NCBI RefSeq assembly: GCF_026151205.1
Contig: NC_087084.1
Location: forward strand, 9,112,894-9,176,893
Source: Bolinopsis microptera
Lineage: Eukaryota; Ctenophora; Tentaculata; Lobata; Bolinopsidae
Direction: 5' to 3'
Length of the DNA: 64,000 bases
A program made the translations under genes and the position numbers. This document shows, piece after piece, positions 1,124 through 41,991 of this stretch. The notes under the pieces are model-generated. The model was given only the letters and a program-made list of their open reading frames with translations. It was not told where the DNA came from and ran no database searches. Positions within the stretch are counted from its first letter, which is position 1; the number at the start of each line of letters is the position of its first letter.

Positions 1124-2362
1124 TTACCATATATTAGGGTCACCTCGATTTTGGAGGGATAGCAAGTGCTTTTTAAGGTTAGATTTAATAATACCTGACG
1201 AGGCTGATAAGTCTGAATTTTTGGAAGAACCCGGGATTATTATCCCATCTACATTAGCATCACATATTTCGAATACATAGGGGATGAGATCATTCCATAT
1301 TTTCGTAGAGGTGTACAAAAAGTTCTGTTGGGAGATATCTAACCTCAGTAATGGGACAATCAGACGAAGTTTTTCATTTCTAGGACAGAACTTGAAAAGA
1401 TCTTTAATCGACTGGGGGACATCAAATTTAAGAATTTTGAATAGCCTCATAAATGTATGGTACATATGCAGATTCTCCAGGTTCATAATTTTCTGCTCAG
1501 TGAATAGCGGTTTAGTGTGTTCAAGACAGTAGTTCTTGCTAGCCATATGTTCGTTATAAGTTCTTGAACGTGCACAGGTTAAGTAGTATTCTTTATGATC
1601 AAAATTGGGAATGTTACCAAATAGCAGTCTTATACATCGTTTTTGAATTGCAAAGATTTTATTCAGTTTATGTTTAGGGATCCCACCCCAGCAACTTATA
1701 CAATAGCTAAGATGTGACATAAAAAGAGCATTGTATAGTTTCAAATATTCAGATTTGGGAATGAATTTGCAAATTTTCTTAATCGATACAATACTGGAGT
1801 TCAGCTTTAAAGATAAATGATTAAGATGTGGTTCCCAACATAGCTGTTCGTCTATTATCACCCCAAGAAACTTTGTACATTGAACTTTTTCTAGCTTTTT
1901 GCCATCTATTGAAATCGTTAGATTCCTGTTAAAGGGCCGTGTTCTAGCACAGGTCTGTGTTGCTCTTGACAAACCTGGCTGAAAATGCATAAAACAACTT
2001 TTCCCTGCATTTATATGTAACTTGTTAGACTCCATATAGTTACTGACTTGTTTCATGACATGATTAGCTTTTTCAAAAGCTTCCTGTGCTGAACGACCTA
2101 TCACAAAAATATTTGTATCATCAGCAAACAGGACGAATTCAGCCAAACTTGAGGAGCTCACAATATCATTAATATAAATCAGAAATAGTAGAGGTCCTAA
2201 CACTGACCCCTGGGGTACACCATACTCAACTGAACACTTGTCCGATTTTTCAGTTTGAAAAGAAGTTACTTGGCTACGGTTTGTTAGATAGCTAGCAAGA
2301 GTTTTTAGTGCAATACCTCTTACTCCATAGTGTTCAAGTTTATGCAGGATCACACACTTCTG
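1124..2362 (-). pseudogene. 5'-truncated non-LTR retrotransposon reverse transcriptase (CR1/jockey-like)
   Basis: The minus frame is open from a tandem repeat at 2364-2432 to a stop at 1124. The recognisable reverse transcriptase part begins at about 2362. Visible motifs are YGVPQGSVLGPLLF (RT motif before the palm), FADD in place of the usual YADD catalytic box, a K-F-LGVIIDE block typical of the LINE thumb, and the downstream HLSYCISCWGG motif of jockey/CR1/L2-type elements. The endonuclease and RT fingers are absent, so this is a 5'-truncated insertion, which is common for target-primed LINE copies. The remaining frame has no stop, so the copy is fairly young, but it cannot be autonomous. 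The first ~37 codons of the open frame come from the GTAACCAG tandem repeat, not from the element. Confidence 0.85.
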
Positions 2363-2363
2363 G

Positions 2364-2432
2364 TAACCAGGTAACCAGGTAACCAGGTAACCAGGTAACC
2401 AGGTAACCAAGTAACTGCAGGTAACCAGGTAA
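2364..2432. repeat. GTAACCAG 8-bp tandem repeat
   Basis: About eight copies of GTAACCAG (one degenerate, CTGCAG interrupted) abut the 5' truncation point of the LINE fragment. The adjacent word CAGAAGTGTGTGAT (minus strand) occurs both at the LINE junction near 2350 and again near 2570, a possible microhomology at the insertion junction. Confidence 0.85.
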
Positions 2433-2479
2433 CCAGCTAACGATAAGATGAATATTGAATATAATATCACACACTAGTT

Positions 2480-4231
2480 TCTGTGGAAGGCTTACGTCGG
2501 TCGCACTACTCGCTCTCTACGGCTTAGGACTGGAGAACATAGGGTCGAATTAAATTCCTCTAATATCACACACTTCTGCTTTATCAGGCCCATTTTATTA
2601 TTTAATCTCATAAACCTGAGTGAGCACGAGCCCTTTGACATTTGAGAACACAAGATAACCTGACCATCCCAAATGGTCATTGATAATACTACTAGTTCGG
2701 TCATTTATGCACATAATGGGCTCCAAACCTGCAAATTCCCTGCTACTTCTAAGACTTGGAACAGAAATATTTATTTTATCATGGGCGTAACCCAGGGGCC
2801 ACGCCTCAGGTCCAAGGGTATCTCAGCTTCTGAATATCTTAAAAACTTCTGGAAGGACTTGAGATAAGCCGAATCTGCATATTTATATACGAGTTATTAA
2901 TAAACATTTTGACTAAAACCTTGAATTTTCGAGAAAATCGCCATACACCATTTTGGGTGTGGCGGCGTGCCCAATTTTGATAATATATTTTGAAAACTTA
3001 TTATAACACTATAAATCTATAGCATTTATTGAGTATTATGTAATGGGATGGAAGTGCATAAACCAGATGTAGCCAGACCACACCCTGGCTCCATAATATG
3101 ATGGACGTGTTTTAATTCCAAATAAAAAGCTCAGATATATCAAATTTCGACTTTCATTGCTCTTACAATTCTGCGAATCCCTTTATTCCCAATATCTATG
3201 CATATTCTGGTTTTATAATATACTAAATTCGATCAGTATATTTAGTTCTAACTATAAACTATTGGTAAACAAAACAAATATGTGTCTGAATCTCTATAAG
3301 TTCTGATTATCATAGTCTAGGTGTCGTAAGTATTTGTAGGATGAGTCGTAAAATCATTGGAAAATCTCCAAGATAAAGAGTTTAGAGTATGGAATCAGAT
3401 TTACGATTGAATTATGGATTCAACTACTTATGAAGATATAGTCCAAAAGAATGCAAATCTTATTAAGAAGCAGATCTTGGCTATTTTTATTTCTCTTTTC
3501 AATGTTGGGACGGTGTTTTTGTGTACTCATAATAATTCATCTATTCTTAAGCCAGGACAGAATAATAACTCAGGGGCTTTGTAAAATGGGAATTATTAGA
3601 AATTAATTATCAATCAAATACATTACTCTTAATTTATCATTATAACTTTTATAATAGAACAAATCATGTATATTTATTTTATCACATGACTTTCCTTATA
3701 GACCAATACTTGATGCAATCGATCTGAAGTGTATTGACTCAAAAGTATGTTTCTGTTTTTAGCTACATTAAAATATTTAGAAATGTTCGAATTTTAAACC
3801 CATGCAAAAGCTTTACAGTTTTTAACGGTCACTCTTTTTCAAAAACGTTTTATTGAAGAAGAATTGATGGTGTTAGCGTAACCGAAAATTCAACTCGTTT
3901 ATAAAATTAGTCAAAAAAATACATCAAATTCGACCAAAATAAGTTGCTCAGAAAAATCAATCAATATTATGATCGCGGATTATTATTAGATTGCTACAAT
4001 CTTAATCGTAAATAATATACATTATGGGCCGGTCATTGAGTCCCCGGTAGAGTCAATTAGTCCAATCATCAGCACCTAGGAAGTTAGGATAGCCGCACAG
4101 TCATACACATCTTTCCGGCCACGGACCCCGGACCAGGCTCTGACAGACACACTTCCTTTCATCTCGAATCTCTATCAGCCTAAAAATATCTTGCACTGGC
4201 AATAAAAGATCTTCATCTCGGCTTTGCCTCA
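2480..4231. other. Intergenic, no gene seen
   Basis: AT-rich DNA downstream of the VWA gene (4232-7106, minus). I see no exon-like open frame with splice sites and no tandem array. It should contain the 3' UTR of the VWA gene in its upper few hundred bases; no poly(A) signal could be assigned with confidence. Confidence 0.5.
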
Positions 4232-8725: not shown

Positions 8726-10169
8726 TTAAGGGGACATACACCAAAAGCTTTTATGCCCTGGCCCTGCTGTTAACGTCATATTAAGAAAGTATACATAAAA
8801 ACAATAAGATTTGATACATTAAAAATTATTTTTGAGGACCCGCACTTTCGAAAAAATAAATATTTTCTTTTTCGAAATTTTTGGAAATTTTGAGAAGTCT
8901 GTCACTGTAATACCGATATTTCGGTCATTTTAAAAGTCATTTTAAAAGTCATTTTAAAAGTCTTTTGGCTGATTTTGTTACTGAAGATTACTTACAATCC
9001 GTACAAGAAGCCCTTCAAAGGATTTTATAATTAAAATATAGATGACGAAGTTACAGACCAAACAAGGTCGAGAGAAGCAAAATTGAAATTTTTGTAAAAA
9101 TCAAAGTTGTATATTTTACCATTCACCCAGGTCATAAGATATCGCTTCAAAAATTCTTGTGAGTGTAGCTGATGATCATATCCAACTTTTTGGAACAGGA
9201 TTTCTCTCAATTTTGAGTTTTAAGGTATGAAATGTGGCCTCAAACGACTTAGTAAAATTCATCGTAAAAAGGGTCAAACATGGCAGATTTAAGGCTTAAA
9301 ATGCCTATAACTCAAAAAGTATCAGTTTTTTTGAAATAATTTTTACAGAATCGTAATCAGCTTGAGAAGACGAATCTTTTAGTACCAAATAGGTGATTTT
9401 AGAAGACAAATTGTCTGAAATAATTTTCTAGCTCGAACACAAGGGTCCCCCCTTGTATAAATTTTGTACAAATTGTACACATTTTTTTACAAATTTTGTG
9501 TCCTAAACTATTATAAATTTGGTACTAAAAGATTCGTCTTACCAAGCTGATTACGATCCTGTAAAAATTATTTCAAAAAAACTGATACTTTTTGAGTTAC
9601 AGGCATTTTAAGCCTTAAATCTGCCATGTTTGGCCCTTTTTACGATGAATTTTACTAAGTCGTTTGAGGCCACATTTCATACCTTAAAACTCAAAATTGA
9701 GAGAAATCCTGTTCCAAAAAGTTGGATATGATCATCAGCTACACTCACAAGAATTTTTGAAGCGATATCTTATGACCTGGGTGAATGGTAAAATATACAA
9801 CTTTGATTTTTACAAAAATTTCAATTTTGCTTCTCTCGACCTTGTTTGGTCTGTAACTTCGTCATCTATATTTTAATTATAAAATCCTTTGAAGGGCTTC
9901 ATGTACGGATTGTAAGTAATCTTCAGTAACAAAATCAGCCAAAAGACTTTTAAAATGACTTTTAAAATGACCGAAATATCGGTATTACAGTGACAGACTT
10001 CTCAAAATTTCCAAAAATTTCGAAAAAGAAAATATTTATTTTTTCGAAAGTGCGGGTCCTCAAAAATAATTTTTAATGTATCAAATCTTATTGTTTTTAT
10101 GTATACTTTCTTAATATGACGTTAACAGCAGGGCCAGGGCATAAAAGCTTTTGGTGTATGTCCCCTTAA
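8726..10169. mobile_element. 1.44-kb TTAA-flanked foldback element
   Basis: The left arm 8726-9390 is the reverse complement of 9517-10169, running almost without break, with ~126 bp of diverged centre. The ends read TTAAGGGGACATACACC and GGTGTATGTCCCCTTAA. The 12-bp difference in arm length is explained by one extra copy of GTCATTTTAAAA in the left arm (three versus two). There is no transposase frame. TTAA at both ends fits piggyBac-type targeting, but TTA-type (Harbinger) targeting cannot be excluded because the end is itself a palindrome. The arms are so similar that the element is young or corrected by gene conversion. Confidence 0.8.
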
Positions 10170-13300: not shown

Positions 13301-16300
13301 AACTTACACTGTTCTACTCCATATTGATATACACGTTCATAAGCAAAACGCTTATGAGCCGAGCAGCTCGCGCGGAGAGTATAAGAGTATAAGAGTATAA
13401 GTATGACAGAGAGGTAGGATTTAATGTCCGCGGCTGCTGAAGTTCAGTTACAAAAAACCTGGAAAACTGGAAGTATCTAAATTACAGTTTACATCCCAGC
13501 CTTGGATAGATTTTTGGGAATAGAATCCAGATTTACTTCTAGATATTCATTTTTGGGATATTCAACCTTACTATTTTTACTACGATATATCCAGCAATTT
13601 ATTAACCGACCGAAGTTCGAAACACCGTCAGCCAGCAAACTACAAGAAATCTACAAGAAATCTTACGAGTTTATTGTTGGCTCTCCTCATGGGATTTTTA
13701 GCTCGATCAACAAATTGAATAATAATAACTTTGATATGCCATATAAGTTAATTATCGCAACAATATATTGAAACCATATCTACTGATTTGTTCCTTTACT
13801 AGTTTACTACGATGGGACAGAGAACAAGAAATGCGGCCGCTTTTCTTTTGTGGATGGCCGCTCAATTTCCCGATCCGTGATGGCGTATTTTATCATATTC
13901 CATACAAGCATACAACCTGGGGACCCCAGTCTTTACAGTTTATAAACATGCAGATATGGCGGAGTGACAGGCCGAGCGCCGCCCAATTAATATAATTCCA
14001 TATTGAATTTGAAGATCGTGTATATTTCTAAATTCTATGTAATCATATGTTTATTGTCTATGCAACCTGAGTCCTGACACCCGACACGGATCTGTGCAAA
14101 ATAGTAATAGTAACTTAAAATAATAATATTATGCTATCAATTAGTGCCTAGTGCACGGTCGCAGAGCTACCATATACAAAAAAAACCTCGTTCGCTAACC
14201 CTTGTCCTTGACTCTTTTAGTTTACTTTGTTCTTTACTGTAAATAAAACATCACCACTTTGCTTGTGGATCACTTTCACTTTCATTATACACAATTGTAC
14301 TTCAAGATAATAGGAATCACATTCTACTTTCCATCTACAAGTACAAATCAGTCTGCTCCAAAGGTCGTGTACAATGCTGTCCTTTCTCAAATCGCTTCAA
14401 AATTTCCATATGTAAAACTTTTCTTTGATTCAAAGAGCTGGCGGAGATAAAGACACAAAATCTACATAAAGCAGGTAAAGAATGTGCTTCACAAAGTTCC
14501 AACAGTAGGAGGCTAGGGTACTCTGTAGTTCTGTCACTTGAGCAACAGGTTGGCTTATATTACTATCACGGGCTCAATCCTAACTCCCATCATATTCCTA
14601 GAGCTATTAAATTTTCTTACTATGGAGTGTGGTCTATTCCTTTCCCTTAAATCTAATCTTCTTATCCAATACTGGATATTCGAAGTGTAATTCTAAATGC
14701 AAATCCTCAACATAAGATCTCACGTTTAAGAACAGATAATGTACAATAGTACAAGGTGTGATTTGCCATACTCTGATTAATATCGAGTCTGTGATTTTCG
14801 TAAAATCACGTCCCCACTCACCAGTCCCCACGAATGAAACTGCTTCCTCGAGATGAGTTTTTACTGAGCCTGTGCAGTGTTCACTGATATCCTGGCCTAT
14901 ACACTAAAACCTTGATTATCTGGAATTCTTGGGGTAAATTTGGGATAATTTATCCCACTAAATCAGGGATTTGATTTACATTAAACATAGAAATAACTAT
15001 AGATATAATAAAATCGAGTTTTAACTACATAACGACTAACGTTATTCGTCACCTTTACTTAACGTTAGCCTTCGCCAAAGTTAATTTATTGATATCGCAT
15101 TCTAACGTGAGTATAATTAACATAAGAGACTGATCTCTAATAATTATTTTTAAAAAAATATATATATATGGTTAGTAAATATTATGGATTGAAGATCAGA
15201 ATTAGATGTTAAAAATGCAATTAAAATGGCTATAAGCCGGCTGTTACCGTAACCACCGGCTAATTTTATAAGCCGGTTAATGACCGGTCGGCGTTGTACC
15301 CATTTGATTTATGTTCATCATGAGCACGCAAAAATGCTTTATTGGTAGCTTCAGATTAGCCTTATCAGGGAAAAATTATTGTAGTAATATTGAATGGAGT
15401 TGGGTTAAAAACATATAAGTGATACGATAGTTTAACTTGTAGAAGCTTTCATTAAACATGTGTTAATCGTCGTCAATCGTTGTAGTAATATGTTCAAATC
15501 CTTGATATACCCCCCTAGTAAGTTAAATTCATGCCGTGTGCCTGGTCAAAAAGGTTCAACTCAAGAGAGCTGCCATCGCATCTTCATAATGTACCAGTTA
15601 TTCAAATTAGTAAGGGTACGAGGTGAGTGAGGGCCCTAGATTAAGGATCACTTTCTAGTTTCCCTTTCTCTCTTCTCTATACCTGAGCTCGTTATGAGAG
15701 GCCACGAGTCTCTCTTAATGAAATATTCATGGCCTTTAAGAACATTATGCCCCTTTAACCTTTCGTTACGAGGGTCAAAATCTAGGTCCAGAGGAGAGAG
15801 GATTTTAGCATAATCACCATCACAATGGTTAGACCTTTATACTTAGTTTGGGTTCGTTAGGTCGGACCGTTTAAGTTGGACGGGTATTGGCGCCTTGATA
15901 CCACTTACATATATTCATGAAGTATTACTGTTACCCAACGGGCGACAGGTTCAACTTCATAACTCTACCATTTCAACTTTGTTAGTTTGAAGGAACGGAG
16001 GGTCCGAATTTTAGAAGTTTAACTTGAGGTCGATAAATAACAATTTCGTTTGTTACATTAAGAATGTTGAAGTCAGTGGATCTTTCTTGCACAGGAACAT
16101 ATTAAAGTTAATGAGTTCCATTATGTTTATTTTTGTTTTAGAAAATAGCCCCTTGCAGCTTTTTGTAATTTAAATATTGAAGTTAAGACAAGTAAAAATT
16201 GATTGTAACTTCAATAATTAAATTAGACTTTCATGTAACTGTTTTTGATAAGTTATGTTTAAATAGATCTTAAGGCTGAGCGTGAGTTTGAGACGAATTT

Positions 16301-19300
16301 AGCTTTCATTTTAGACTTCACGTCTCCCGAAATAAAACTGCGAACAAAGTGAAACAAGGAACTAAGTAAACTGTAAAACCAAATTTTCGTCACGCATTGG
16401 ACTTTATCAAGGTTACACTGAAAAGGGGAGGTTTGATCTCTGAACCAGAGAGTGTTGGTAATTGGGTTAGGAAAGTAAACATACATGCGACAAAGATCAG
16501 GGTTACCATTAGGAAGAAAATTTCAGCAAAATTTATAGAAAAGGGGTGTACACATCCATGCGAGAAAAATCGGGTTACCAATAAGAAAAAATCACAACAG
16601 AGAAAGTTTACAACCCTCGGATCAGCGTAGTAAAAGTGTACTAGAAATTAGTCTGTAAAACCGTTTCCACACATGTTATTGATTTTAGGTTTAGTGTGTT
16701 CTATTGCTAAGCCTTCTCTTATAAAGGTATCTAAGGTATCCTTACATTGTTCTGATATGCTAAATTCGTAGTTTTCGAAGAATTTTGCTAAGTCTCTTTT
16801 TCCCGATATGGGAGTGTAGTGTGGGTCGTCTGCTCTGCGGTGTTCAGCAGCGTGGTATCCTAGTGTGGTCCTGCTGTTGTTGAGTCGGAAGCTAGACTCG
16901 TGTTCGTAGATTCGACCTCTAATAGGTCGTCTTGAAGCTCCTATGTACAGATCTCCGCATTTCTTACATTTTGCTTTGTACACGTAGTGTCGGGTGGTAC
17001 AGTTGAGATCTGCCTTGCAGAGTTCGCACTCGCATATCTCGTCTTTAGATGGTGTGCTGATGATGCTCCTGACAGCTTTCCCCGCCTGTGTCACTACTCT
17101 GGCGTTTATTCCCAGTTGCTTGATCGATGAGTTGACTCTCCTGGTAAAGCTCTCGTTAATGTACGGTATCTTCAGGATAAGGTCGGGTTCTGGCCGGGGT
17201 TCTCGTGGGGTCGAGCTTGTTAGTACTTCTAGTCTCTCTAGAGCTTGTAACATGTGTTTTGTCACGACTTCTTTGGGATATCCGGAGTTTACGATCAGGT
17301 GAGTTTTCAGTTTTTCGAGGTATGCCCAGCTGTCATCCTTGTATTTGCAGTTGAGAACTATCCGCCTAGTCTCCGACCTGATGATGTTTGTTTTGGTGAC
17401 TAGACTACAGTGTGAGTCGTAATGCAAATATCTTCCAGAAGCCGTAGGTTTTTGGTAGTGAGTGAAAGATATTTCATTGTTCTCTTTTAGCTCAATGGTG
17501 AGATCAAGGAAAATGAGCTTTCTATCTTCTTGAAGTTCGCTGGTGAAGTTTACATAGGCCCAAACAGAGTTCAGATTGGCTTTGAATTCCTCGAAGTCTT
17601 CGGCGCTTGACTTCCAGAGTAACCAGGCGTCGTCAACGTACGTGGAAAGGCACTCCGGCTTGTGGGTACTCTTTTCTGCTGCTATATTGTAGGTGTAGTC
17701 GACGATGATTTCTGCGTATGCGCCTGAACTATGGGACCCAGTGCCGATACCCTGTTTTTGTAGGTAGTATTTGTCGCCTGCTTTGATGTAAGTGTGGTGT
17801 AGGACAAATTCGAGCATGGAGACAATATGTGAGGGCGAAAATCCGTACAGGTTAATATTTTCTTTGTAATCTTCAATGTACGATAGTATGACTTGTAAAG
17901 CTCTCTCGTCAGTGGGTAGAGTAGGGTACATGTTCTCCACATCAAGGGATGCTTGGAAACTGACACTACTGGTTACGGTGATGTTGTCAGGATAAGTGTT
18001 GCGGAGCTTAGTGAGAAAATCTTTTGTACTTTTGACTCGGTCCGAGTCAAAAGTACAAAAGATTTTCTCACTAAGCTCCGCAACACTTATCCTGACAACA
18101 TCACCGTAACCAGTAGTGTCAGTTTCCAAGCATCCCTTGATGTGGAGAACATGTACCCTACTCTACCCACTGACGAGAGAGCTTTACAAGTCATACTATC
18201 GTACATTGAAGATTACAAAGAAAATATTAACCTGTACGGATTTTCGCCCTCACATATTGTCTCCATGCTCGAATTTGTCCTACACCACACTTACATCAAA
18301 GCAGGCGACAAATACTACCTACAAAAACAGGGTATCGGCACTGGGTCCCATAGTTCAGGCGCATACGCAGAAATCATCGTCGACTACACCTACAATATAG
18401 CAGCAGAAAAGAGTACCCACAAGCCGGAGTGCCTTTCCACGTACGTTGACGACGCCTGGTTACTCTGGAAGTCAAGCGCCGAAGACTTCGAGGAATTCAA
18501 AGCCAATCTGAACTCTGTTTGGGCCTATGTAAACTTCACCAGCGAACTTCAAGAAGATAGAAAGCTCATTTTCCTTGATCTCACCATTGAGCTAAAAGAG
18601 AACAATGAAATATCTTTCACTCACTACCAAAAACCTACGGCTTCTGGAAGATATTTGCATTACGACTCACACTGTAGTCTAGTCACCAAAACAAACATCA
18701 TCAGGTCGGAGACTAGGCGGATAGTTCTCAACTGCAAATACAAGGATGACAGCTGGGCATACCTCGAAAAACTGAAAACTCACCTGATCGTAAACTCCGG
18801 ATATCCCAAAGAAGTCGTGACAAAACACATGTTACAAGCTCTAGAGAGACTAGAAGTACTAACAAGCTCGACCCCACGAGAACCCCGGCCAGAACCCGAC
18901 CTTATCCTGAAGATACCGTACATTAACGAGAGCTTTACCAGGAGAGTCAACTCATCGATCAAGCAACTGGGAATAAACGCCAGAGTAGTGACACAGGCGG
19001 GGAAAGCTGTCAGGAGCATCATCAGCACACCATCTAAAGACGAGATATGCGAGTGCGAACTCTGCAAGGCAGATCTCAACTGTACCACCCGACACTACGT
19101 GTACAAAGCAAAATGTAAGAAATGCGGAGATCTGTACATAGGAGCTTCAAGACGACCTATTAGAGGTCGAATCTACGAACACGAGTCTAGCTTCCGACTC
19201 AACAACAGCAGGACCACACTAGGATACCACGCTGCTGAACACCGCAGAGCAGACGACCCACACTACACTCCCATATCGGGAAAAAGAGACTTAGCAAAAT

Positions 19301-22300
19301 TCTTCGAAAACTACGAATTTAGCATATCAGAACAATGTAAGGATACCTTAGATACCTTTATAAGAGAAGGCTTAGCAATAGAACACACTAAACCTAAAAT
19401 CAATAACATGTGTGGAAACGGTTTTACAGACTAATTTCTAGTACACTTTTACTACGCTGATCCGAGGGTTGTAAACTTTCTCTGTTGTGATTTTTTCTTA
19501 TTGGTAACCCGATTTTTCTCGCATGGATGTGTACACCCCTTTTCTATAAATTTTGCTGAAATTTTCTTCCTAATGGTAACCCTGATCTTTGTCGCATGTA
19601 TGTTTACTTTCCTAACCCAATTACCAACACTCTCTGGTTCAGAGATCAAACCTCCCCTTTTCAGTGTAACCTTGATAAAGTCCAATGCGTGACGAAAATT
19701 TGGTTTTACAGTTTACTTAGTTCCTTGTTTCACTTTGTTCGCAGTTTTATTTCGGGAGACGTGAAGTCTAAAATGAAAGCTAAGTTATGTTTAAAAAAAT
19801 AATAAAACAATTCCACTTTAGCTTATCGTCAAAGCAGAAATATGAAGGTTTTAGTGATCCTGATAGGAGTCTTCTCAGCTGTCTGTAAGTAATGTTTATT
19901 TTTAGGGAATAGAATATCGTGTGCTTGGCTAATTTCTTTCTGTTAACGAGTGCCACCGTATGATCACAGGGGTCCAGGGCAGTTCGGCGTAAGACTCTAC
20001 GGAGTGAGACTATAACCCTAACCCTAACCCTAACCCTAACCCTAACCCTAAACCTAACCCTAACCCTAACCCTAACCCTAACCCTAACCCTAACCCTAAC
20101 CCGCCGGAGAGTCTTACGCCGTAGAGTCCGGACCCCATCGGAAGTTAACCAATTAAGGGTTTGGTAAAATAATACTACTGCTTTGTTAGGCAATCAAACA
20201 GACTGTTGCTACGTTTGAATAAGATCAGAGACTTAAAAGATAAATAGTACAATACAAATTTGAGAATAAACAACGTAAACAGTAAACACCCACAGCGGCG
20301 GAAGAAATGAAGTGTAATGGCGCTGATGGCGCCACTGCCGAGGCCTGCGATGACGGAGTTGTCGCATGTACATCGTGAGTTACAAATTTTCCTTTTTATA
20401 ATACAATTAAATATTTCTAATTTCAGAATTAAATACGGGAAAATTATAAAAAAATTACTTCCATTCTGGTGGTTTTAGATACACTCGAGAGTCGAGACCG
20501 AGTCATTGATGAATTTTTTATGAAAATCTTTTCAAAATTTACATACAATATAACATGTGGCGCAAAATAAAATCAAAATATAACTGATTGCGATCTCTAA
20601 AGGACAGATGTATGTGAATTTCAAAGGGAAACCAGAACGCAGTAAAATTGTAATCGAAACCACACCGCACAAGCCTAGTCCCTGGTAAATGAAAATCAAT
20701 CAAATAATATGTTGATAAAAAATCATATCCCATCAGTCCTTCTCGGAGCTTACGATCTTATTGTTCCTTATAACATGAACTCGCTGAGGCTCCAATTCCC
20801 GTTTCTGCTTAACTTCAAGAACTAACTTCCTGAAGGCAGCTCTCTGCTCGGCTGATCGGTCGGGGCTGATGTACACTGAGTCATACCCCTCCACTTCTCT
20901 TAGTTTTCTCGCTTTGCTCAACACTCGCCGCACATGATCTGAGCCGCTGAGAGTGAACTTGATAGGTTTAACGGCTGGTCCTCCATCTGATACAGTTCTC
21001 CCCATCCTACAGCAAGAAACGATTCGAGGTTTCTCATCTATGTTTTCTAGTACCTCAAGCACTCTCTTTTCCAGGATTTCTTCACTCTTTTCTGGTAGAC
21101 CGTAGATGACCAGATTTTGACTACGATCCTCTTCCTCGGAGGCACTTTTCATAGCAGCTTTCATTTTCTTAGGCGCTAGCGCCTTGCTGCATGAATTCTT
21201 CACAACTGACGACCAGGCTTTGAGTTCGCTTTTCACTGTCGTCTGAACAGAGGTCAAATCCTCACTTTTCTTCTCAAGCAATTGTCCTTGCAGTTTAATC
21301 ACAGTGTTCTGATCTGCAATCTTTTCGTCCTTCAGTTGGTCGATTTCATCTTGTAGTTTGGTGGCTGAAAACAACAGCGGTGAACAATAACTGTCGAGAA
21401 TGTCGATAAAAGTTTCCATCCAATCACACAGTATAGCCTTGGTGATCTGAGGCTTGTTGAGCGTTTCTTTACGTAACACATTCGATTTCTGAACACCTGC
21501 CGCTTGACGCATATCGTTGAGTAGCATAATCTGAGCACCCAAAATCTGTTCAGCATACATTGATCTGAATTTGAGTGTAGAGTAATTCATCGCTATTTCA
21601 TTGTCAAGATTCTCCAAGTATTTGTTAACCATGATGTACAATGTACACGCAGGGCCAGTTTAATATACACGAGTATATTATCTGCTACACAGTGAGAGCT
21701 GTTTAAACCGACGCAAAAGCAATTAACTGATAAGTCACATCTCACATCTAGTTAAAAAATGAACTTACAATATTTTGACTACTTTGACGTGACTTTCAAC
21801 GGGTGTCCAAACCCACATCGAATCCAACTCCTTCCATGTTTTACATTCAGCATACTATTACTAACTTCAATACACCAATTCAAAATCCACCATTCCCTCA
21901 GTCCAGTGTGGTCGGAGTACGGAGGTATGAGTGCTCAAGCGTACGGGTGTGGAGCGTGCCCTGCTGACAGTACTGCGACATGTGCCCAATGCGATGCCAA
22001 AGCAGACGAAGGATGCAACGTAAAAGTAGCAGCTCCAGGTAAATCTGAATTCGCAATGGAGACATAAAGACATAATAAATCAAATTTTGAACTATATGAC
22101 CTTTGATACATAAAATGCATATTAAATTTTGCATATCTGACATTTGTTTGTTGAGGGTCGATAAGTAATAATAACAAATTTAACGAACAGGTCAAATATT
22201 GCTTGCTAATTGGAACATAATTTGGCGCATTTCTCTTGATCTTGTTCCCCATTCCTGCTTCCCTTTCGTCTTATTCCTTATCTGGGGACCCTATAGGCTA

Positions 22301-25300: not shown

Positions 25301-28300
25301 TAATCTTGTCACACAAATAAGAGAAGGTCCACACTTCGACAGAAACATTGTGGACTAGCTATTGAGTATTGTAAATTTAAGCTTTCAAATGAAAGTGAAA
25401 CGTTTTTCAAGTAATATACAGATTTTCATTGTTTCTTTGAGTGTACTAATTCGTGAGTCGATGTCAAAAAGTTTTCAATCCACTATGCTCGATTAGAGTG
25501 GTAGATCGAAAGACAAAGCACTTTTCCAATAAAAAAGAAGCTACAGACTTCAACATTACAAACCAGCTATTGTAAATTTATACTTCTAAACTGAAAGCGA
25601 AACATGTTTCAAGTAATATGCTGATTTTCAGTGTTTCTTTGAACCTCGTAATTCGTGAATTCGTTCGAAAAGTTTTCTATCCACTATGCTCGATTAGAGT
25701 GGTAGATCGAAAGACTCTGAACTTTTCCAATAACAAAAGAAGCTACAGACTTCAACAGAAACACTTAAATCACTACGGACCAGGTATGTCATATTGTAAG
25801 TTTAAGCTTTCAAATAAAAGCGTAACGCTTTTAAGTAATATACAGGTTTTTAACTGCTTCTTTGAGGTTCGTGCCTACTTATTCGTGAATAAGGAGTACC
25901 AGAGAAAGGTTGCAACTGCAGAGATCGTGCTAGCTGCCTCCTGGAAGGACAATATCTTGTAAGATGATTTATCAACCAGGAGGACAACGTGCAAATAGTG
26001 TTGAAGTAACTGAGAAGAAATTGAGTTTCGGACATTGTCAGAGTGTTAAAAACTCAAAATATCGACTGAGTAATGAGTATCGAACTGACTATCTGGAAAC
26101 TCAGGGAGTGTGATAATGTGATATTAAAAATTTAAAAGTACTCAAAATCTAGCACGTTGTTTCAATGTGAGTTATTAATATTATTTACCTATTTTGAAAC
26201 ATATTTGAATAAATTGTAGAAGTGCTATGGCTTAAATTCTACCTCTGCAGGGTATATCATTAGCAATCAACTAACAGCATCCATGTACAGGGTAAACTAA
26301 AACTGAGTCGTTTTTTAACCGATGCTTCCCTGACTCTAATCTAGTAAACCTAGTCTCGGACTAATATAGAGGTTGCGTATCGGCGGTGGAGGTAGACACA
26401 TATTTGGTCGCTTAGGGTTAGGGTTAGGGTTAGGGTTAGGGTTAGGGTTAGGGTTAGGGTTAGGGGTCCGGGACTCTACGGCGTAAGACTCTACGACGTA
26501 AGACTCTAAACCTAACCCTAACCCGCCGTAGAGTCTCACGCTGTAGAGTCTTACGCCGTCCGGACCCCGGTGCACCTTGATCATGGCGAACTTTCCCAAT
26601 ATCTGCTGACTTCAGTCGGGTATTATAATAGTGTTACTTAAAGTAATAATTTACCAAACAAGTTCCTCTATTTCGGGTTAAATTCATCATTCAATTAAAT
26701 TTCATGAAAGTTTATGTTACAATAACTTAGATTTCGAGAAGCACTCAGCATTGGGTCAAGATATATTTATTATTTCTAACGAATCTTATGCTCATGACGA
26801 TTGTTCTTTGTCGTGAAACTTTCAGTAGACGAAGTTCGTTGTTTTACTTCGTTAGAATTTGAATTAAGCAGAGCATTAGTTGAAGAAGAACCGCACCGAT
26901 AGATTTTAACATAATACAATATAATATATTGTGTATCAAATATGTAAGAGCATATTGTAGATGCGGAGTGTAAAAGTAAATAGTCCTTAGCTGGCGAATC
27001 TATTGTCTATTTGTCTCATATTATATGGAACGTTTGTTCAAACTGTGAAATTAAATTTCAGTTTCTCTTTGAATAAAGTAATTCAAGAGTCCGCAATTTG
27101 ACTGTCCTCATGGAAATGATTCCTAGTCACAATACTGAATAATATGCACACTGCATAGCATAAAGAAAGAAAATGTAAACATATAGAAAGAGAATGTAAA
27201 CTTTACCGACTACAAAAAAGCAAAGTGCTCAAACAGAAACATTTGGAACCTGCTAATGTGTATCGCGAACATGTTAAAACTTAACAAGGAGCAATTTTTG
27301 TAGCTGATGTTTATTGATTCCAGTTTGTCGGTGGATGGTTTTAACAACTTCGATATTATGATTTTATTGTAGATAAGAAATAATACGACTCTTAATTAAT
27401 TAGCTAAACGTCAAACTCAAAGCAGAAGAATGAAGGTTTTCTTGATCCTGATGGGAGTCTTCTCAGTTGTCTGTAAGTAATGTTTATTTTTTAGAGAATC
27501 GAACATCGTGTGCTTGGCTAATTTCTTTCTGTTAACGAGTGCCACCGTATGATAACTTAATAATATAATGCTGTTACGTTTAAAAGATTTTAAAGATAAA
27601 TAGTACAATACAAATTTGAGAATAAACAACGTAAACAGTAAACACCCACAGCGGCGGCAGTCAAAAAGTGCAATGGTGTTGATGGCGTCACTCCCGAGGA
27701 CTGCGCGACCGAAGATGTCGCATGTACATCGTGAGTTGCAACTTTTCCTTTGTTGTGTTTTTAATATAATTAAATATTTTTAATTTCAGAATTGAATACT
27801 GGAAAATTTAAAAAAAATTACTTCCATTCTGGTCGTTTTAGATACACTCGAGTCATTGATGAATAGTCACATCTCACATCTAGTTAACAAATGAACTTAC
27901 AATATTTTGACTACTTTGATGTGACTTTCAATGGATGACCAAACCCACATCGAACCCAACTCTTTCCATGTTTTACATTCAGCATACTATTACTAACTTT
28001 AATACACCAATCTAAAACCCACTATTCCCTCAGTCCAAAGTTTGCAGAGTACGGAGGTCTGAGTACTCAAGCGTACGGGTGTGGAGAGTGCCCTGCTAAC
28101 AGTGCTACGACATGTGCCCAATGCGTTGCCACAGCAGACACCGGATGTAACACAAAAGTGGCACTAAGTAAATACATTTGCGATTATATACATTCCAAAT
28201 CAAATTTTGATCCGCGGCTCAATAAGAGTATCGAGTAAACATGTTTAACAGAATATTATTATTATCAGTCCTGCTTTGAAAATAAAAGTCCGTGTCGAGG

Positions 28301-34300: not shown

Positions 34301-37300
34301 GATAAGTACTGTAGAAGGGGGTTGTTAACTAAGTTAACTAGATAAGGAGTTGTTTGTAACTAGTTACATAGCAGTTAGTAAAAGTGTGCAGAAATAACTA
34401 ACCAACGAAAAGTTAGTTTCAAAAGAAGCAAATCTTTAAATAGTTAAGTTACCTAGTGCGTTGCAGAACTTGCCGACATCACAGTCCACACAGTCGTCAA
34501 CTGATTCCCCTCCCTCTGTACCAAGATACGTGCCTGAGAGTAACAAGTTACGTTATTTGGTCACATCTGATTGTTTCACATCTCCAATATGATAACAATT
34601 TAAGAAATGCTCCAATACAATTTGAAGTGCAGACCAAAGGACAGCGCCGATTCACTGGTTCACTGACATTCCTACATAACCTAGGAGACAACATACCAAG
34701 AGGACAGGAAGTAGGGATGGTGGTACCAGCCAGACAGTAGGATCCCGGGGGACAGGGTTTGTTTCCTAGAGCATCAGCTGGTGGATCAGCCTGCTTCGCT
34801 CCTGGAGATTGTTTACTGATTAATTAAGTTGAGATATTGGTTTTAAAGGAGAAAGAATGAAGAGAAATGGCTCGGATTCTAACTCCACGTTGAGACAGCA
34901 TGCTTTACAAAAATACAAATTCCACATATTATCTTAGTAAAAACCTTGCTTGCAGTAGGACCCAGCCAGACAGTTCCCAGAGTCTGTAGTTTTGCCTGGT
35001 GTATCACAGTATTTACCCGCCGGACATAACGTGCAGTCTTCTGCCGCTGTAAGTTGGGTTGCCAGCGACTTGGTTCCAGCAGGACATTTCTGGAACGGAG
35101 GAAAACGTTTTATGAAGATGTTGTGATATCATTTATCAACAATATAATTATGCCAGTTTTTAGAATAATTAATTTACACCGTTAAAAGTGAGCTGATTAT
35201 TATATACGATAATCTCAACTCTCAAGCTATTTAAATGGACTGTTTATCTAAATACTTTAATAACTACATCGTATACGTGCTGGACTGACCGTTGGTTTCT
35301 TGACAAATCATTGGCTCTATCATTATTATATTACGACAAAAAATCATCATTACAACAAAATATAATCATTACAAAAATGATCACATTGTAAAGTAAAGTA
35401 TTACCTGAGAAAGGGTGTTGCCGCCCCCACAGTAGTGACCAGCAGGACAGTCAGCAGGTATTAACACCCCAGGCTCACAGTACTTTCCGGCCGGACACTC
35501 AACACATTCCGTCTGTCCGGTTTGTTCTTGGAATGTGCCTCCCTCACATGGCACAGGCTTATCTTGTCCCTGAGATACGGACTCGGAGTGAGTTCATGTC
35601 ACGTGCCATTGTGCGGGTCCAGGTATAACTTCACGTGTATAACTTCACGTGATTTGATAACAATGCTAATTATTTCGCGTTCAATATATATATATATTCC
35701 AGTTGCTTTTAGAACAATTTTATCTCAGATAACGATGTTTAATAAAATGATGCAAAGACTTATTTCGAAGATCTAATCAACACCGACTTTTAATGTGTAG
35801 GAGTACAGCTACAAAATATATATATAATACCCTCGCCAGATAAATCTTTCTTTTTATGAAATTCTGACCCATACGTTTTCGTCGATAAACGTTTTATCGA
35901 TAAATCGATAAAAACTGAGAGTTTTAAAACTGGAATATGGAACTATAACTGACCTGAGGACATTTAGAACCGGGTTCGCAGGGGAATGAGTTCTGTTGGT
36001 CTGTACCAGCTGGACAGTAGTAACCTTCCGGACACACGTGGTTATCTTCGTCAACCTGGTTTAGCAGATAGTAAGGTCATCTTGTTTGTGTCATTTTCAC
36101 CATTAATGATTGGAATTTTAGAATTAATGGCGACAACACAATGTGGTGTGTAGCTAACGACGACTGACCGAATAAACAGGTAGAATAACCTGAGTTATTA
36201 CGTGACCAATTCATCACGTGGCAAATTCATCACGTGACCGACTAAACAGGTAAACTAACCTGAGTTTGACCAGGTAGAGGACAATAGAAGCCTGCTTGAC
36301 ATGGTGTACACTGAGTCTCAGCAGAAAGTCCCTTGTCAGATGAGAACTTACCAGCAGGACAGGGCGCTGGTGTAGCTCCAGTTCCTTCCGGGCAGTAGTT
36401 TCCTGGGGAACAGTCACTTAATATTGTTCAAATCACAAGATACCTCCCTTCACAGCTCACTCAGTGCTATATCATAACACCTATGTCCTTATCATTAGAA
36501 AAAGGGTGAAGCCTAGTAAATCGTCAACAGGATTGAAGGAGATAATCGGGTGTTTGGTAGTGTGGCCGTACAATTTTAGCGAGTATTTTTTGATTTAACG
36601 TAGAAAAATAATAACTAAAATGTTTTACACATCTTTCAGATTCAGACACATGGCTATTTTTGGATTAACTCTTTAGAGTCAAATCTTAAACAATCTGAGC
36701 TAGAATAAAATACGATGAAGAGTCGTGTATATTGATTTTCAGTTTTGATTCTTAAGTTCTTTTTTCATTATATTTTATATTTTGAATTTCGAGATGTTTA
36801 ATTTTTTTGATGGCTTATAATTTCTTAATTCGCATTCAAATAATGACACATAAATCATCATAGATTGATAAAAAGGATTTTTTAAAACATTACACCAGAT
36901 ATTGTACACAATTAATACATAACAAGATTAATAACAAAATCTAATATTATTTAAAGAATATCGTTAGTTGGGCCGCTGTGGCTTTTAAAATGTATACCTT
37001 GCCGGGGCCATTCAGTTTAGCTAAAACTGATAACTGTTCGTCATTTTGATTTCAAATAACAACACATATTTCACATATTTCGAATAACAACACAATCATA
37101 TTTTACACATTATTGTCCGTTTTCAAGATGTATGCAAACTGTCCGTGTTTTCTCCAATCTCCGTTCCGTCCAGACAGGATTCAGACCAGCTACTCGTTGA
37201 ACTTGTGGTATTTCAAAAGGTGCTCTAGAAGATCATCGTCGAGAATTCCCCTGACTAACTCCCACTGGCTGCACGTTCCGGCTTCCACTAAAACGTCACC

Positions 37301-40300
37301 ATTTCTTTTGGCGTTAAGGAAATCCGACCATTCCAGGACGACGTTCTGGTTGAGGTTCAGGTCTAGCTCACCACATCTTCCGCGCTCATACAAGTTGCCG
37401 ACTTCTTCACTGGATAATTTCTTATCAAGCACCACCAGGTTGTATAGGTCGCCACTAAAAGCCTGGGGCCCCTGAAATCCTCCTCCCCGTTTGTCCTGGT
37501 CCTGACCAAGGACAAGAACACCTCCAGCCTTAAGTTTACGACCTGAGGTTGTAGCTTTGTTGGCGACTTCCACTCCGTTTACATATATCCGTCTGGTGGC
37601 TGAGGCGAGGTCCCAGCTTTGGCAATAGTGGCTCCAGACATCAGATTCTAGGTTTGAAGCAGAATCTCCTAAGTCATCCTGAAACAGTGAATCAAAACTG
37701 GCACCATTATTGCTGATCGTTATCTCGTTATCATCAGAGGAAGCAACCTGGTAGCTAAACCAAACACCATAAGTGTTTCCATTATTCCTGGGTCTAACCC
37801 AGGTACAGATTGTGAAGGATGTCTCCATACCCTGGAAATCAGGGTCGTCCAAGATTACATAGTTACTAACCGAGGGGGTGGAAGAGAACCTCATGACTTC
37901 CCCAAGAGAAACTACCGGGTCTATAACTAGGAGGAGTAGGGTCACTAGCATCACGGTGATCTTCATTATTGGGATATCTTTCGAGGGACTGTTACAGACA
38001 CGGATAAGCGTAAATTGACGATCGAACAAAGAACTAAGGTGATTGGTTAAGTCTGCTCAACTTATAAACTGACCTGCTGTCAAGAAAAAATCCAAAAGTC
38101 AAAAGTAACGAACCCATACATCATAAATTTTATCCATACTGTAGACGATTATGGCGTCTAATCCATGGGTTGCAACGAAACTTTAAGGTGTTTTTTGACG
38201 ACGATCAGTACTCAGAAATTAGAATATTTATATCCCCTATTCATTACACAACTGACTCTAACCCACTACTAGCTTTTTATACTTTAACATTGAACATCTG
38301 ACAATTTTCATCATAAGATTTAGGACTTCTTCAGAAAATGCAGGCAATAAATCTCAAACTATAAATGTGCAACATATATTATCTGTTATTGGCGCCAATA
38401 CTATGTGGATAAGTTTTATAGTTAAAATAAGTTAACATCGCACGAGCACTTCTATTTCTAACGAATCAGCAATGATAGGAGTTCCTACCAAGCTGAGGAT
38501 AGACAGATATATCTTATCAGCAAACCCCACTTACTCACTTAGTGTCACAATGTTATAAATTATTGGGATTATTGTAGTATTATAAATTATCATAATATTA
38601 TATGATGGGACCATGTATATAATAAATTATTATAATATTATGCTGTCAGTATAACATAAGATTGAGATATTTTGGCATTCAATTACTTAACAAGTATTTG
38701 GTAGTGTGCTGTGGCCGTACAATTTTAGCAGGTATTTTTTAATTTAACGTAGAAAATTAATAACTAACATTTTTACACATCTTTCAGATTCAGACACATG
38801 GCTATTTTTGGATTAATTCTCCAGATTCAAATTTTAAACAATCCGAGCTAGAATTAAATACGATGAAGAGTCGTGTATATTGATTTTCAGTTTTGATTCT
38901 TAAGTTCTTTTTTCATTATTATATTTTGAATTTCGAGATGTTTAATTTTTTTGATGGCTTATAATTTCTTAATTCGCATTCAAATAATGACACATAAATC
39001 ATCATAGATTGATAAAAAGGATTTTTTAAAACATTACACCAGATATTGTACACAATTAATACATAACAAGATTAATAACAAAATCTAATATTATTTAAAG
39101 AATATCGTTAGTTGGGCCGCTGTGGCTTTTAAAATGTATACCATGCCGGGGCCATTCATTTTAAATAAAAATGATGACTGTTCGTCATTTTGATTTCAAA
39201 TATCAACACATATTTCACATATTTCGAATAACAGCACGATCATATTTGACACATTATTGTCCGTTTTCAAGTTTCATGCAAACTGTCCGTGTTTTCTTAA
39301 ATATCCGTTCTGTCCAGACAGGATTCAGACCAACTACTCGTTGAACTTGTGGAATTTCAAAAGGTGCTCTAGAAGATCATCGTCGAGAATTCCCCTGACT
39401 AACTCCCACTGGCTGCACGTTCCGGCTTCCACTAAAACGTCACCATTTCTTTTGGCGTTAAGGAAATCCGACCATTCCAGGACGACGTTCTGGTTGAGGT
39501 TCAGGTCTAGCTCACCACATCTTCCGCGCTCATACAAGTTGCCGACTTCTTCACTGGATAATTTCTTGTCAAGCACCACCAGGTTGTATAGGTCGCCACT
39601 AAAAGCCTGCTCCGCAGCAAATCCTCCTCCCGGACTGTCCTGGTCCTGACCAAGGACAAGAACTCCTCCAGCCTTTAATTTACGACCTGAGGTTGTAGCT
39701 TTGTTGGCGACTTCCACTCCGTTTACATAGATCCGTCTGGTGGCTGAGGTGAGGTCCCAGCTTTGGCAATAGTGGCTCCAGACATCAGATTCTAGATTTG
39801 AAGCAGAATCTGCTAAGTTGTCGCTAAACAGTCTATCCCAACTGGCACCATCATTGCTGAACGTTATCTCGTTATCATCAGAGGAAGCAACCTGGTAACT
39901 AAACCAAACACCATAAGTGTTTCCATTATTCCTGGGTCTAACCCATGCACATATTGTGAAGGATGTCTCCATACCCTGGAAATCAGGGTTGTCCAAGATT
40001 ACATAGTTACTAACCGAGGGGGTGGAAGAGAACCTCATGACTTCCCCAAGAGAAACTACTGGGTCTATAACTATACTAAGAGGAGTAGGGTTACTAGCAT
40101 CATGGTGTTCTTCATTTTGAGATATCTTTCGAGGGACTGCTACAGACACGGATGAGCTTAAATTGACGATCTAACAAAGAACTAAGGTTATTGGTTAAGT
40201 CTGCTCAACTTATAAGCTGACCTGCTGTCAAGAAAAAATCCAAAAGTCAAAAGTAACGAACCCATACACCATAAATTGTATCCATACTGTAGACGATTAT

Positions 40301-41991
40301 GGCTTCCAATCCATGCGGGTTGCACCGAAACTTTAAGGTATCTTTGACGACGATCAGTACTCAGAAATTATAATATTTATATCCCTTATTCACTGCACTA
40401 CTGACTCTAACCCGCTATTCGCTTTTTATACTTTAACATTGAACATCTGACAATTTCATCATAAGATTTGGGAGTTCTTCGCCTAAATCTCAAACTATAA
40501 ATAAAATGTGCAACATATATTTATGTTAATTATCTGTTATTGGCGCTAATACGAGCACTTCTAACGAATCAGCAGTGCTAGGAGTTCCTACCCAGCTGGG
40601 GATAGACAGATATATCTTATCAGCAAACCCCACTTTGTGACACAAACAATGCCATAAATTATTATAATATTATAAATTATTATAATACCCTAAATTATTA
40701 TAATATGTACTATTTCGTCTTAATATACACTTTCACAAGCCAAGTTACATAGGTCGGTATAATTGCGGTGCTCCAGTGGAACAACAAAGTCAAAGCAACA
40801 GACCAGCTTATTCTAAACCATTCAACTTCCAGCATTTGGTAGTATTTTACATAAATGACATATTTTACATAAATGACATATTTTACATACGTTTCATATG
40901 TTATAATTTACATAATATGTTACCTGCGGTACACTCGTTAGAGTCAGGTTCGTCAGTGCCAGCAGGACAATAGTACTTAGCAGGGCAGATATCGTCATCA
41001 GTAACCTTGCTCATTCCTGCTGTCTGAGGAAAGGATGGGTTAGTTGACAGACAAGAAACAGGCAGATTTGAAACAGACGGGCGGGCAGACGAAGGAAATT
41101 ACTGACACACAAGAACCAGACCTACACAGATCTCGGAGAGATCACGGACACAGACTGTTCGGCTAACTAAAAAACCACAAAATCGATGCATATTAACAAG
41201 AGTAATTAAAGAAATATAACCTCGTGGACAAAACAGACGGATAAACACTAACCTGGCAGAAGTATCTGGCAGGGCAGGGTTGTTGAGTCTCACTTCCTCG
41301 GGGGCAGATGTGACCAGGGGTACACTGACCCCCCGTATCTCCAGTAGGAGGGGTGCCACTCATAGCACCACCCGTACAGTAGTACCCGGCCTCGCACTCC
41401 TCTGAGTTACACGTTTAGTTAGTTAATTAAGTTAGTTGGTTAGTTCGGTTAGTTAACTCGGAGGAATCTATCGGATTTAATATTAAAGGTGATCGTTCAA
41501 GAATGTAAAAATTGTTTGTTGTGTTTTTTAATTGGAATTTGGAAATGCTAGCTCGCATTCCATAAAAATCAAAACAAACCAGTTGGACCGTCCAGCCCTG
41601 TGGTAGCACAGAAGTACCCCGCTGTACAGGGTTTACACGCATCAGCAGTGGCCCCCTTGGGATCAGGGTTGAACGTTCCTTGGTCGCACTTTGTAGCTGT
41701 TGCTTGACCTGACATAGGGAGAATTATTGGTTACATGTGTGAGGTTAGAGTAGTGGTTTCAACAAAAAGAAAAGTTTTTGTTGTACTGGAATTTTTATAA
41801 TGCTGTTCAATACAGAAGGTCAAATAAAGAACCATGGATAAAGGAGGAAAATGGATATAATAATAATGTATAATAATAATATTAAACACTCACTTGATCC
41901 TTCGGCACACCAGTGACCGAGCTTACATTCGCTGTTCTGGTAGTCTGTAGCTCCCACCTCACACGTGTAACCTACGAACAGCAAATTAGTA

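Follow-up and report, generated by a model that had tools for sequence, protein, structure and literature searches.

The 64,000-nucleotide (nt) stretch of DNA analysed here, hereafter the window, comes from contig NC_087084.1 of the ctenophore Bolinopsis microptera (positions 9,112,894 to 9,176,893, forward strand) and contains two truncated copies of a Penelope-like element (PLE) that meet head to head as mirror images. Coordinates are positions in this window unless another locus is named, and positions on the element refer to a reference unit of 3,202 nt, taken from the tandem copy L029, onto which all loci of this family (family 1) were mapped. Comparison of the window with itself yields an inverted repeat of 1,745 nt per arm (16296-18040 and 18042-19786), 100% complementary, forming a palindrome of 3,491 bp in total whose spacer is a single T at 18041. 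An earlier note on this DNA, which had described a perfect 3.48-kb palindrome with zero spacer, was thus right about the perfection of the arms, but not about the spacer. The insertion comprises the following features, where RT stands for reverse transcriptase:

16249-16263, no strand: left target-site duplication, TAAGTTATGTTTAAA, a direct repeat
16264-16297, minus strand: tail (extension), at this outer end only; family-wide 38-nt sequence between two 3' end positions
16298-18041, minus strand: left arm, PLE copy truncated at its 5' end and covering unit about 1422-3164, with the 3' end facing outward, from mapping on the unit
16648-18041, minus strand: truncated reading frame of the left arm, with part of the RT and a C-terminal GIY-YIG-like region
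18041, no strand: central base of symmetry, from the inverted-repeat alignment
18042-19784, plus strand: right arm, PLE copy truncated at its 5' end and covering unit about 1423-3164, with the 3' end facing outward and lacking a tail, from mapping on the unit
18042-19434, plus strand: truncated reading frame of the right arm, GIY-YIG match below the Pfam cut-off
19781-19795, no strand: right target-site duplication, TAAGTTATGTTTAAA, of which the first 3 bases are compatible with the element end as well

Much of what the earlier note had read from the letters is borne out: the two arms are truncated PLE copies meeting at the centre (unit 1422 and 1423), their alignment gives 0 differences over 1,741 compared positions, and the 15-bp repeat flanks the palindrome on both sides. 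The outer junctions, AAA on the left and TAA on the right, are 3 bases each that are compatible with both element and target. Extra element sequence, which the note had put at about 35 bp on one side, is present on the left only, at about 16264-16297 (34 nt, or 37 if the ambiguous AAA is included). No mirror symmetry is found in the sequence outside the target duplications. Chance is no explanation for a perfect 1.7-kb inverted repeat within a 15-bp repeat, and the presence of a mirror-image PLE pair is confirmed in the sequence as assembled. The single integration event proposed before also holds. Its supposedly recent date is plausible, with no difference between the arms and 6 of 1,740 positions differing between them and the nearest other genomic copy; however, gene conversion between the arms could also keep them identical.

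Identity of the element

The window element is a PLE. Locus L029 has an uninterrupted frame of 954 codons, with its ATG at L029:2872, in whose protein we take motifs such as YVDD to be those of an RT; the Pfam RT models gave no match to it. The GIY-YIG model (PF01541) matches both the window arm (E=0.00036, 21.2 bits) and L029 (E=0.0092, 16.7 bits) below the cut-off of 22.6. The protein is 26-30% identical to those of further families of the same genome, and comparison with solved structures returned no meaningful match for either of the two proteins compared. Family 1 displays other PLE traits: its copies are often 5'-truncated, occur in inverted orientation, and have short target-site duplications, and its units can be arranged in tandem or partial tandem, L029, L021, and L042 each continuing past the unit end into a following unit. 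Where units are in tandem, the 38-nt tail connects one 3' end with the beginning of the unit that follows, where it corresponds to codons 5-17 of the L029 frame, that is, to the frame start. The tail pattern has 32 matches in the genome, and a backwards-read control pattern has none.

A hammerhead ribozyme in the pseudo-long terminal repeat (pLTR) is frequent in PLEs and was treated as non-defining. No Rfam match to it was obtained in the window at gathering scores, nor at E values up to 10 in window positions 16000-20000, in L029 2200-6200, or at the L029 tandem junction; with no match in these four scans, a hammerhead was rejected as the origin of the tail boundary. The Rfam matches of low E value within 16000-20000 came from microRNA-hairpin models aligned to the centre of the palindrome; none reached its gathering score, and they were rejected.

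Head-to-head pairs throughout the genome

The searched genome amounts to 264.65 Mb and includes at least 13 contigs of 15-26 Mb as well as TTAGGG arrays; at least 59 matches to the arm were found in it (40 of 58 candidates being scored), many of them in abutting minus-plus pairs. The 42 loci examined are the window and 41 others fetched through an arm match or the tail pattern; L034 and L035 have a flank in common and probably represent duplicates. Contrary to the isolated example that the earlier note had presented, 26 of the 42 are head-to-head pairs, the other 16 being single-arm copies, and a second family also forms pairs. All 26 pairs have the minus-then-plus order, with 3' ends outward, and all lie between direct repeats 10-19 nt long that differ at no more than one position, some repeated bases being common to the element end. 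In 23 of them, the flanking repeats beat all 208 control pairings of mismatched flanks.

The second family, family B, is a distant PLE with about 26% protein identity to family 1. One of its pairs, L051, lies on a 59-kb contig (C30). Its two arms, each 2,579 nt long, are identical and meet around a 4-nt centre; the insertion is flanked by a 13-bp target duplication and bears a single 38-nt tail. Nine further pairs were chosen as having both arms visible in the 3'-end search and being short enough; since that search scored the best 40 of 335 candidates, they are a sample.

Some observations concern how these copies end. A 5'-truncation hotspot lies at unit 3037-3060 (L028, L012, L031, and L019, among others) and gives many short pairs and single copies of about 120-160 nt. 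Folding of four RNA stretches from the 3' end (134-224 nt) revealed nothing that explains it. In L019, an apparent inverted copy of the target flank (about 1540-1553) stands between target duplication and arm, as if copied target DNA had replaced the missing arm.

One tail per pair

Exactly one tail of about 38 nt is present in 25 of the 26 family-1 pairs, 14 times on the left and 11 on the right. Six pairs (L023, L025, L030, L032, L044, and L045) were found via the tail search only and could not have shown zero tails, so that the count is also given as 19 of 20 without them. With independent ends, even at the most favourable 50%, at least 19 one-tailed pairs out of 20 would have a probability of 2e-5. 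The ten sequenced pairs of family B all have exactly one tail, together with a 13-15-bp duplication. Its match tables, in which ten further matches lie outside the assessed set, add five insertions with one outer tail, one of them duplicating a fetched pair and three having been recognised by the tail. Among single-arm copies of family 1, the 3' end bears a tail in four (L018, L019, L037, and L043, of which L037 was found via its tail only) and none in 11, L034 not being judgeable.

The tail is not tied to the length of the arm. In family 1, the tail arm is longer than its partner in 12 pairs, shorter in 12, and equal in one, and family B is split five to five. This even split rules out a steric trailing of one polymerase behind the other, which predicts a tail arm that is always shorter. 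In total, 17 of 35 pairs carry the tail on the arm that is shorter, the difference exceeding 3 nt in 15 of these 17, so that RNA-templated synthesis must begin separately at each outer end. In the window pair, the arm with the tail exceeds its partner by 1 nt.

A shared source for both arms

Shared alleles indicate that the two arms of an insertion derive from one source. Across the 26 family-1 pairs, 52 minority alleles are shared against 6 informative disagreements, whereas arms of different loci agree 136 times and disagree 633 times (400 comparisons). The 6 disagreements comprise two single-base indels, one difference at a junction, and three at a single site (3089); 70 further differences are private to one arm. 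In family B, where an allele seen in one other locus sufficed, 67 agreements stand against 2 disagreements within pairs, and 305 against 1,210 between loci (180 comparisons). Even though the arms of L040 begin at 1731 and about 2690, nearly 1 kb from each other, all 465 locally aligned bases are identical; mapped on the unit up to the junction, which was placed by hand, as was the L042 coordinate, they differ by one substitution and one insertion in 480, and the best other locus is 96% identical.

The inner (5') ends are also coupled: 11 of 26 family-1 pairs have theirs no more than 20 nt apart, against 3.0 expected on random re-pairing (p about 2e-5), as do 7 of 10 family-B pairs, against 0.79 expected (p about 1e-5). 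Among the 11 family-1 pairs with both arms reaching upstream of 3030, 4 are coupled and 0.38 would be expected (p 2e-4 to 1e-3). These p-values assume independent sites and loci, which is not fully true, so that the ratios weigh more than the exact values. The most symmetric inner ends of family 1 are those of the window (1422/1423) and L017 (3001/3001, a 0-nt loop), and the near-symmetric family-B pairs have loops of 3-16 nt. As a separate observation, the inner ends of L030, L032, and L038 are exactly 13 nt apart in all three.

At the 26 family-1 junctions, microhomology measures 2 nt in ten pairs, 1 or 3 nt in four, and 4 or 6 nt in two; one of the remaining junctions lacks it, and nine have 1-14 inserted nt. 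The window junction has no microhomology.

Proposed mechanism

We consider it probable that the window feature arose as one PLE insertion, through bidirectional target-primed reverse transcription on a shared RNA, followed by the joining of both cDNAs. The element protein, probably as a dimer, would cut the two target strands about 15 bp apart, and the 3' ends so released would each prime cDNA synthesis. The two syntheses would begin at two neighbouring RNA sites about 38 nt apart, each used once, which would leave a tail at one outer end and none at the other. Synthesis of both cDNAs would then proceed on one RNA, or with lower probability on two RNAs from a single source, in the direction of the RNA 5' end, which for the window may have been broken near unit 1422/1423. 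Finally, the cDNA 3' ends would be joined, possibly by a template jump; microhomology of 1-3 nt is present at this junction in 14 of 26 family-1 pairs but not in the window, where the joining would leave a perfect palindrome with a one-base centre. The sequences directly show the duplications, the orientation, the single tail per pair, the sharing of alleles, and the coupling of 5' ends, whereas the dimer, the single RNA molecule, the sequence of events, and the joining are inferred.

In its general form, the proposal is that, for some PLEs, integration necessarily involves two primers acting asymmetrically on one RNA molecule. Two protomers would occupy start sites about 38 nt apart, each site would be used exactly once per two-ended insertion, and both syntheses would run to the same RNA 5' end, palindromic dimers being the standard product rather than an accident. 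We regard this generalisation as evenly poised between holding and failing.

Several findings weigh against the proposed mechanism. The flanking repeats of L041, L044, and L045 are no better than the controls, and 16 of the 42 loci have a single arm. L011 has no tail, one of its outer ends being cut short at unit 3006, and a family-B cluster on contig C3 (7159956-7168119) has two tails and three 3' ends. The arms of L014, L015, and L025 differ at 8 of 222, 5 of 119, and 4 of 119 positions, respectively, which exceeds the distance to the nearest other locus and could reflect either decay after insertion or different templates. Taken alone, the 14 short family-1 pairs show no significant excess of coupling (7 against 5.1), and the 5' ends lie more than 20 nt apart in 15 of 26 family-1 and 3 of 10 family-B pairs, so that a shared RNA 5' end is insufficient by itself. 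In vitro, Frangieh et al. (2024) found no difference between strands in the use of start sites (PMC11167929). A third PLE family of this genome displayed no abutting inverted partner among the best 40 of 276 candidates; its scored copies are about 100% identical over the 203-bp 3' end and apparently recent, and two copies read in sequence (L050 and L052) have a single orientation and 11-12-bp flanking repeats. Pair-forming integration may therefore not be universal across PLEs.

Alternative explanations

The first alternative retains bidirectional target-primed reverse transcription, but on two separate RNAs of one source, with the 5' ends derived from shared stops or breaks. Cis-preference would give both RNAs the same alleles, and a truncation hotspot does exist, at unit 3037-3060. 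However, the coupling of 5' ends within insertions exceeds what pooled ends would give, and one tail per insertion calls for an extra rule, which makes this alternative unlikely.

Fold-back, or self-priming, is the principal competing explanation, but quite unlikely. Here, a tailed cDNA primed at one target end would fold over at its 3' end and copy itself, after which the product would be connected to the opposite target end; Arkhipova et al. (2013; PMC3846280) discuss a related idea, in which self-priming takes place on an antisense RNA. Fold-back predicts identical arms and near-symmetric centres, loops as long as those of the seven near-symmetric family-B pairs would permit a hairpin, and the tail arm of the window is the longer one. 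A hairpin primer needs a loop larger than 0-1 nt, and those of the window (1 nt) and L017 (0 nt) are too tight. Nothing would halt the copied strand at the second start site either. Moreover, the shorter arm, which would be the copy, should hold no sequence absent from the longer arm, and this expectation fails across the pairs: in the 17 of 35 with the tail on the shorter arm, the copied arm would bear a tail that its template arm lacks. Fold-back fails as a general route for this reason, an argument inapplicable to the window, where the tail arm is longer by one base. In this fold-back sense, the template switch on the opposite strand that the earlier note had invoked does not account for the pairs as a class, but a template jump may still be involved at the joining of the cDNAs.

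It is very improbable that the arms were formerly different and became identical by gene conversion between inverted arms. Conversion between the arms of a palindrome is an established process, and arm identity alone cannot discriminate, but it leaves the matching 5' ends and the tail rule unexplained, and some pairs (L014 and L015) did diverge. An assembly fold-back artefact at the palindrome centre is barely credible: even though the arms are perfect, the window centre is known from the assembled sequence alone, and L051 sits on a 59-kb contig, a simple fold-back is disfavoured because the window flanks are unmirrored, with a duplication and a one-sided tail, and 25 further family-1 and 9 further family-B pairs, many asymmetric, lie on contigs of 15-26 Mb.

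Comparison with known systems

A close counterpart is the Poseidon PLE of Anolis carolinensis (PAc), for which Frangieh et al. (2024; PMC11167929) showed cutting and extension of both target strands in vitro, and whose tail is the sequence lying between two neighbouring start sites of reverse transcription. Like family 1, PAc has tandem units and a tail between adjacent start sites, close to where the reading frame begins. PAc has a hammerhead ribozyme (PMC11167929), and none was found here in the scans described above. The main text on PAc gives no counts of head-to-head pairs and no one-tail rule (PMC11167929).

The Penelope families of Adineta vaga, as described by Arkhipova et al. (2013; PMC3846280), likewise have inverted pLTRs, palindromes at inverted junctions, and partial tandems, with a 31-bp tail that is optional on one inverted pLTR and target duplications of 8-10 bp. 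Those authors favour self-priming on an antisense template (PMC3846280), whereas here the tails on shorter arms favour two RNA-templated starts. In Drosophila virilis, a fraction of Penelope copies has a 30-40-bp tail, as cited in PMC11167929. Inverted PLE copies, tails, and target duplications are thus already known (PMC11167929, PMC3846280), and the window pair is an unusually symmetric example of them. Neither the count of one tail per two-ended insertion nor the evidence from alleles and end points for a shared template was found in the PLE literature searched; the passages of PMC12910113 covered say nothing about how pairs are built, and older Penelope papers may state the one-tail rule.

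Two further systems offer parallels. The Penelope of D. virilis also forms partial tandems. In the twin priming of L1 elements, two target ends prime on the element RNA and the cDNAs are joined inverted; the second primer anneals inside the RNA, which results in a 5' inversion, whereas both outer ends of the PLE pairs described here are 3' end sites.

For PLEs, which are relatives of telomerase, the published explanations of inverted copies differ. In the dozens of pairs from two distant families, the reaction has left a fossil record, legible in tails, alleles, and end points, that favours two primers on a common RNA over fold-back as the general route. The pairs also turn the loose notion of an optional tail on one inverted copy into a countable rule, testable in other genomes and in vitro.

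Other features of the window

A 1.44-kb fold-back element at 8726-10169 is a near-complete palindrome that matches its reverse complement at 93%; its ends read GGGGACATACACC, and TTAA stands at each border. Two interstitial telomere-repeat arrays lie 6.4 kb apart: TAACCC, 15 times, at 20013-20102, which begins about 220 bp from the PLE pair, and TTAGGG, 9 times, at 26412-26465. Inverted GACTCTAC/GTAGAGTC units surround the former array and adjoin the latter. A direct duplication (36561-38388 and 38710-40528, with 93% DNA identity) contains two similar minus-strand reading frames at 37190-38029 and 39334-40149. Finally, a 32-bp satellite array of about 49 copies occupies 61007-62587.

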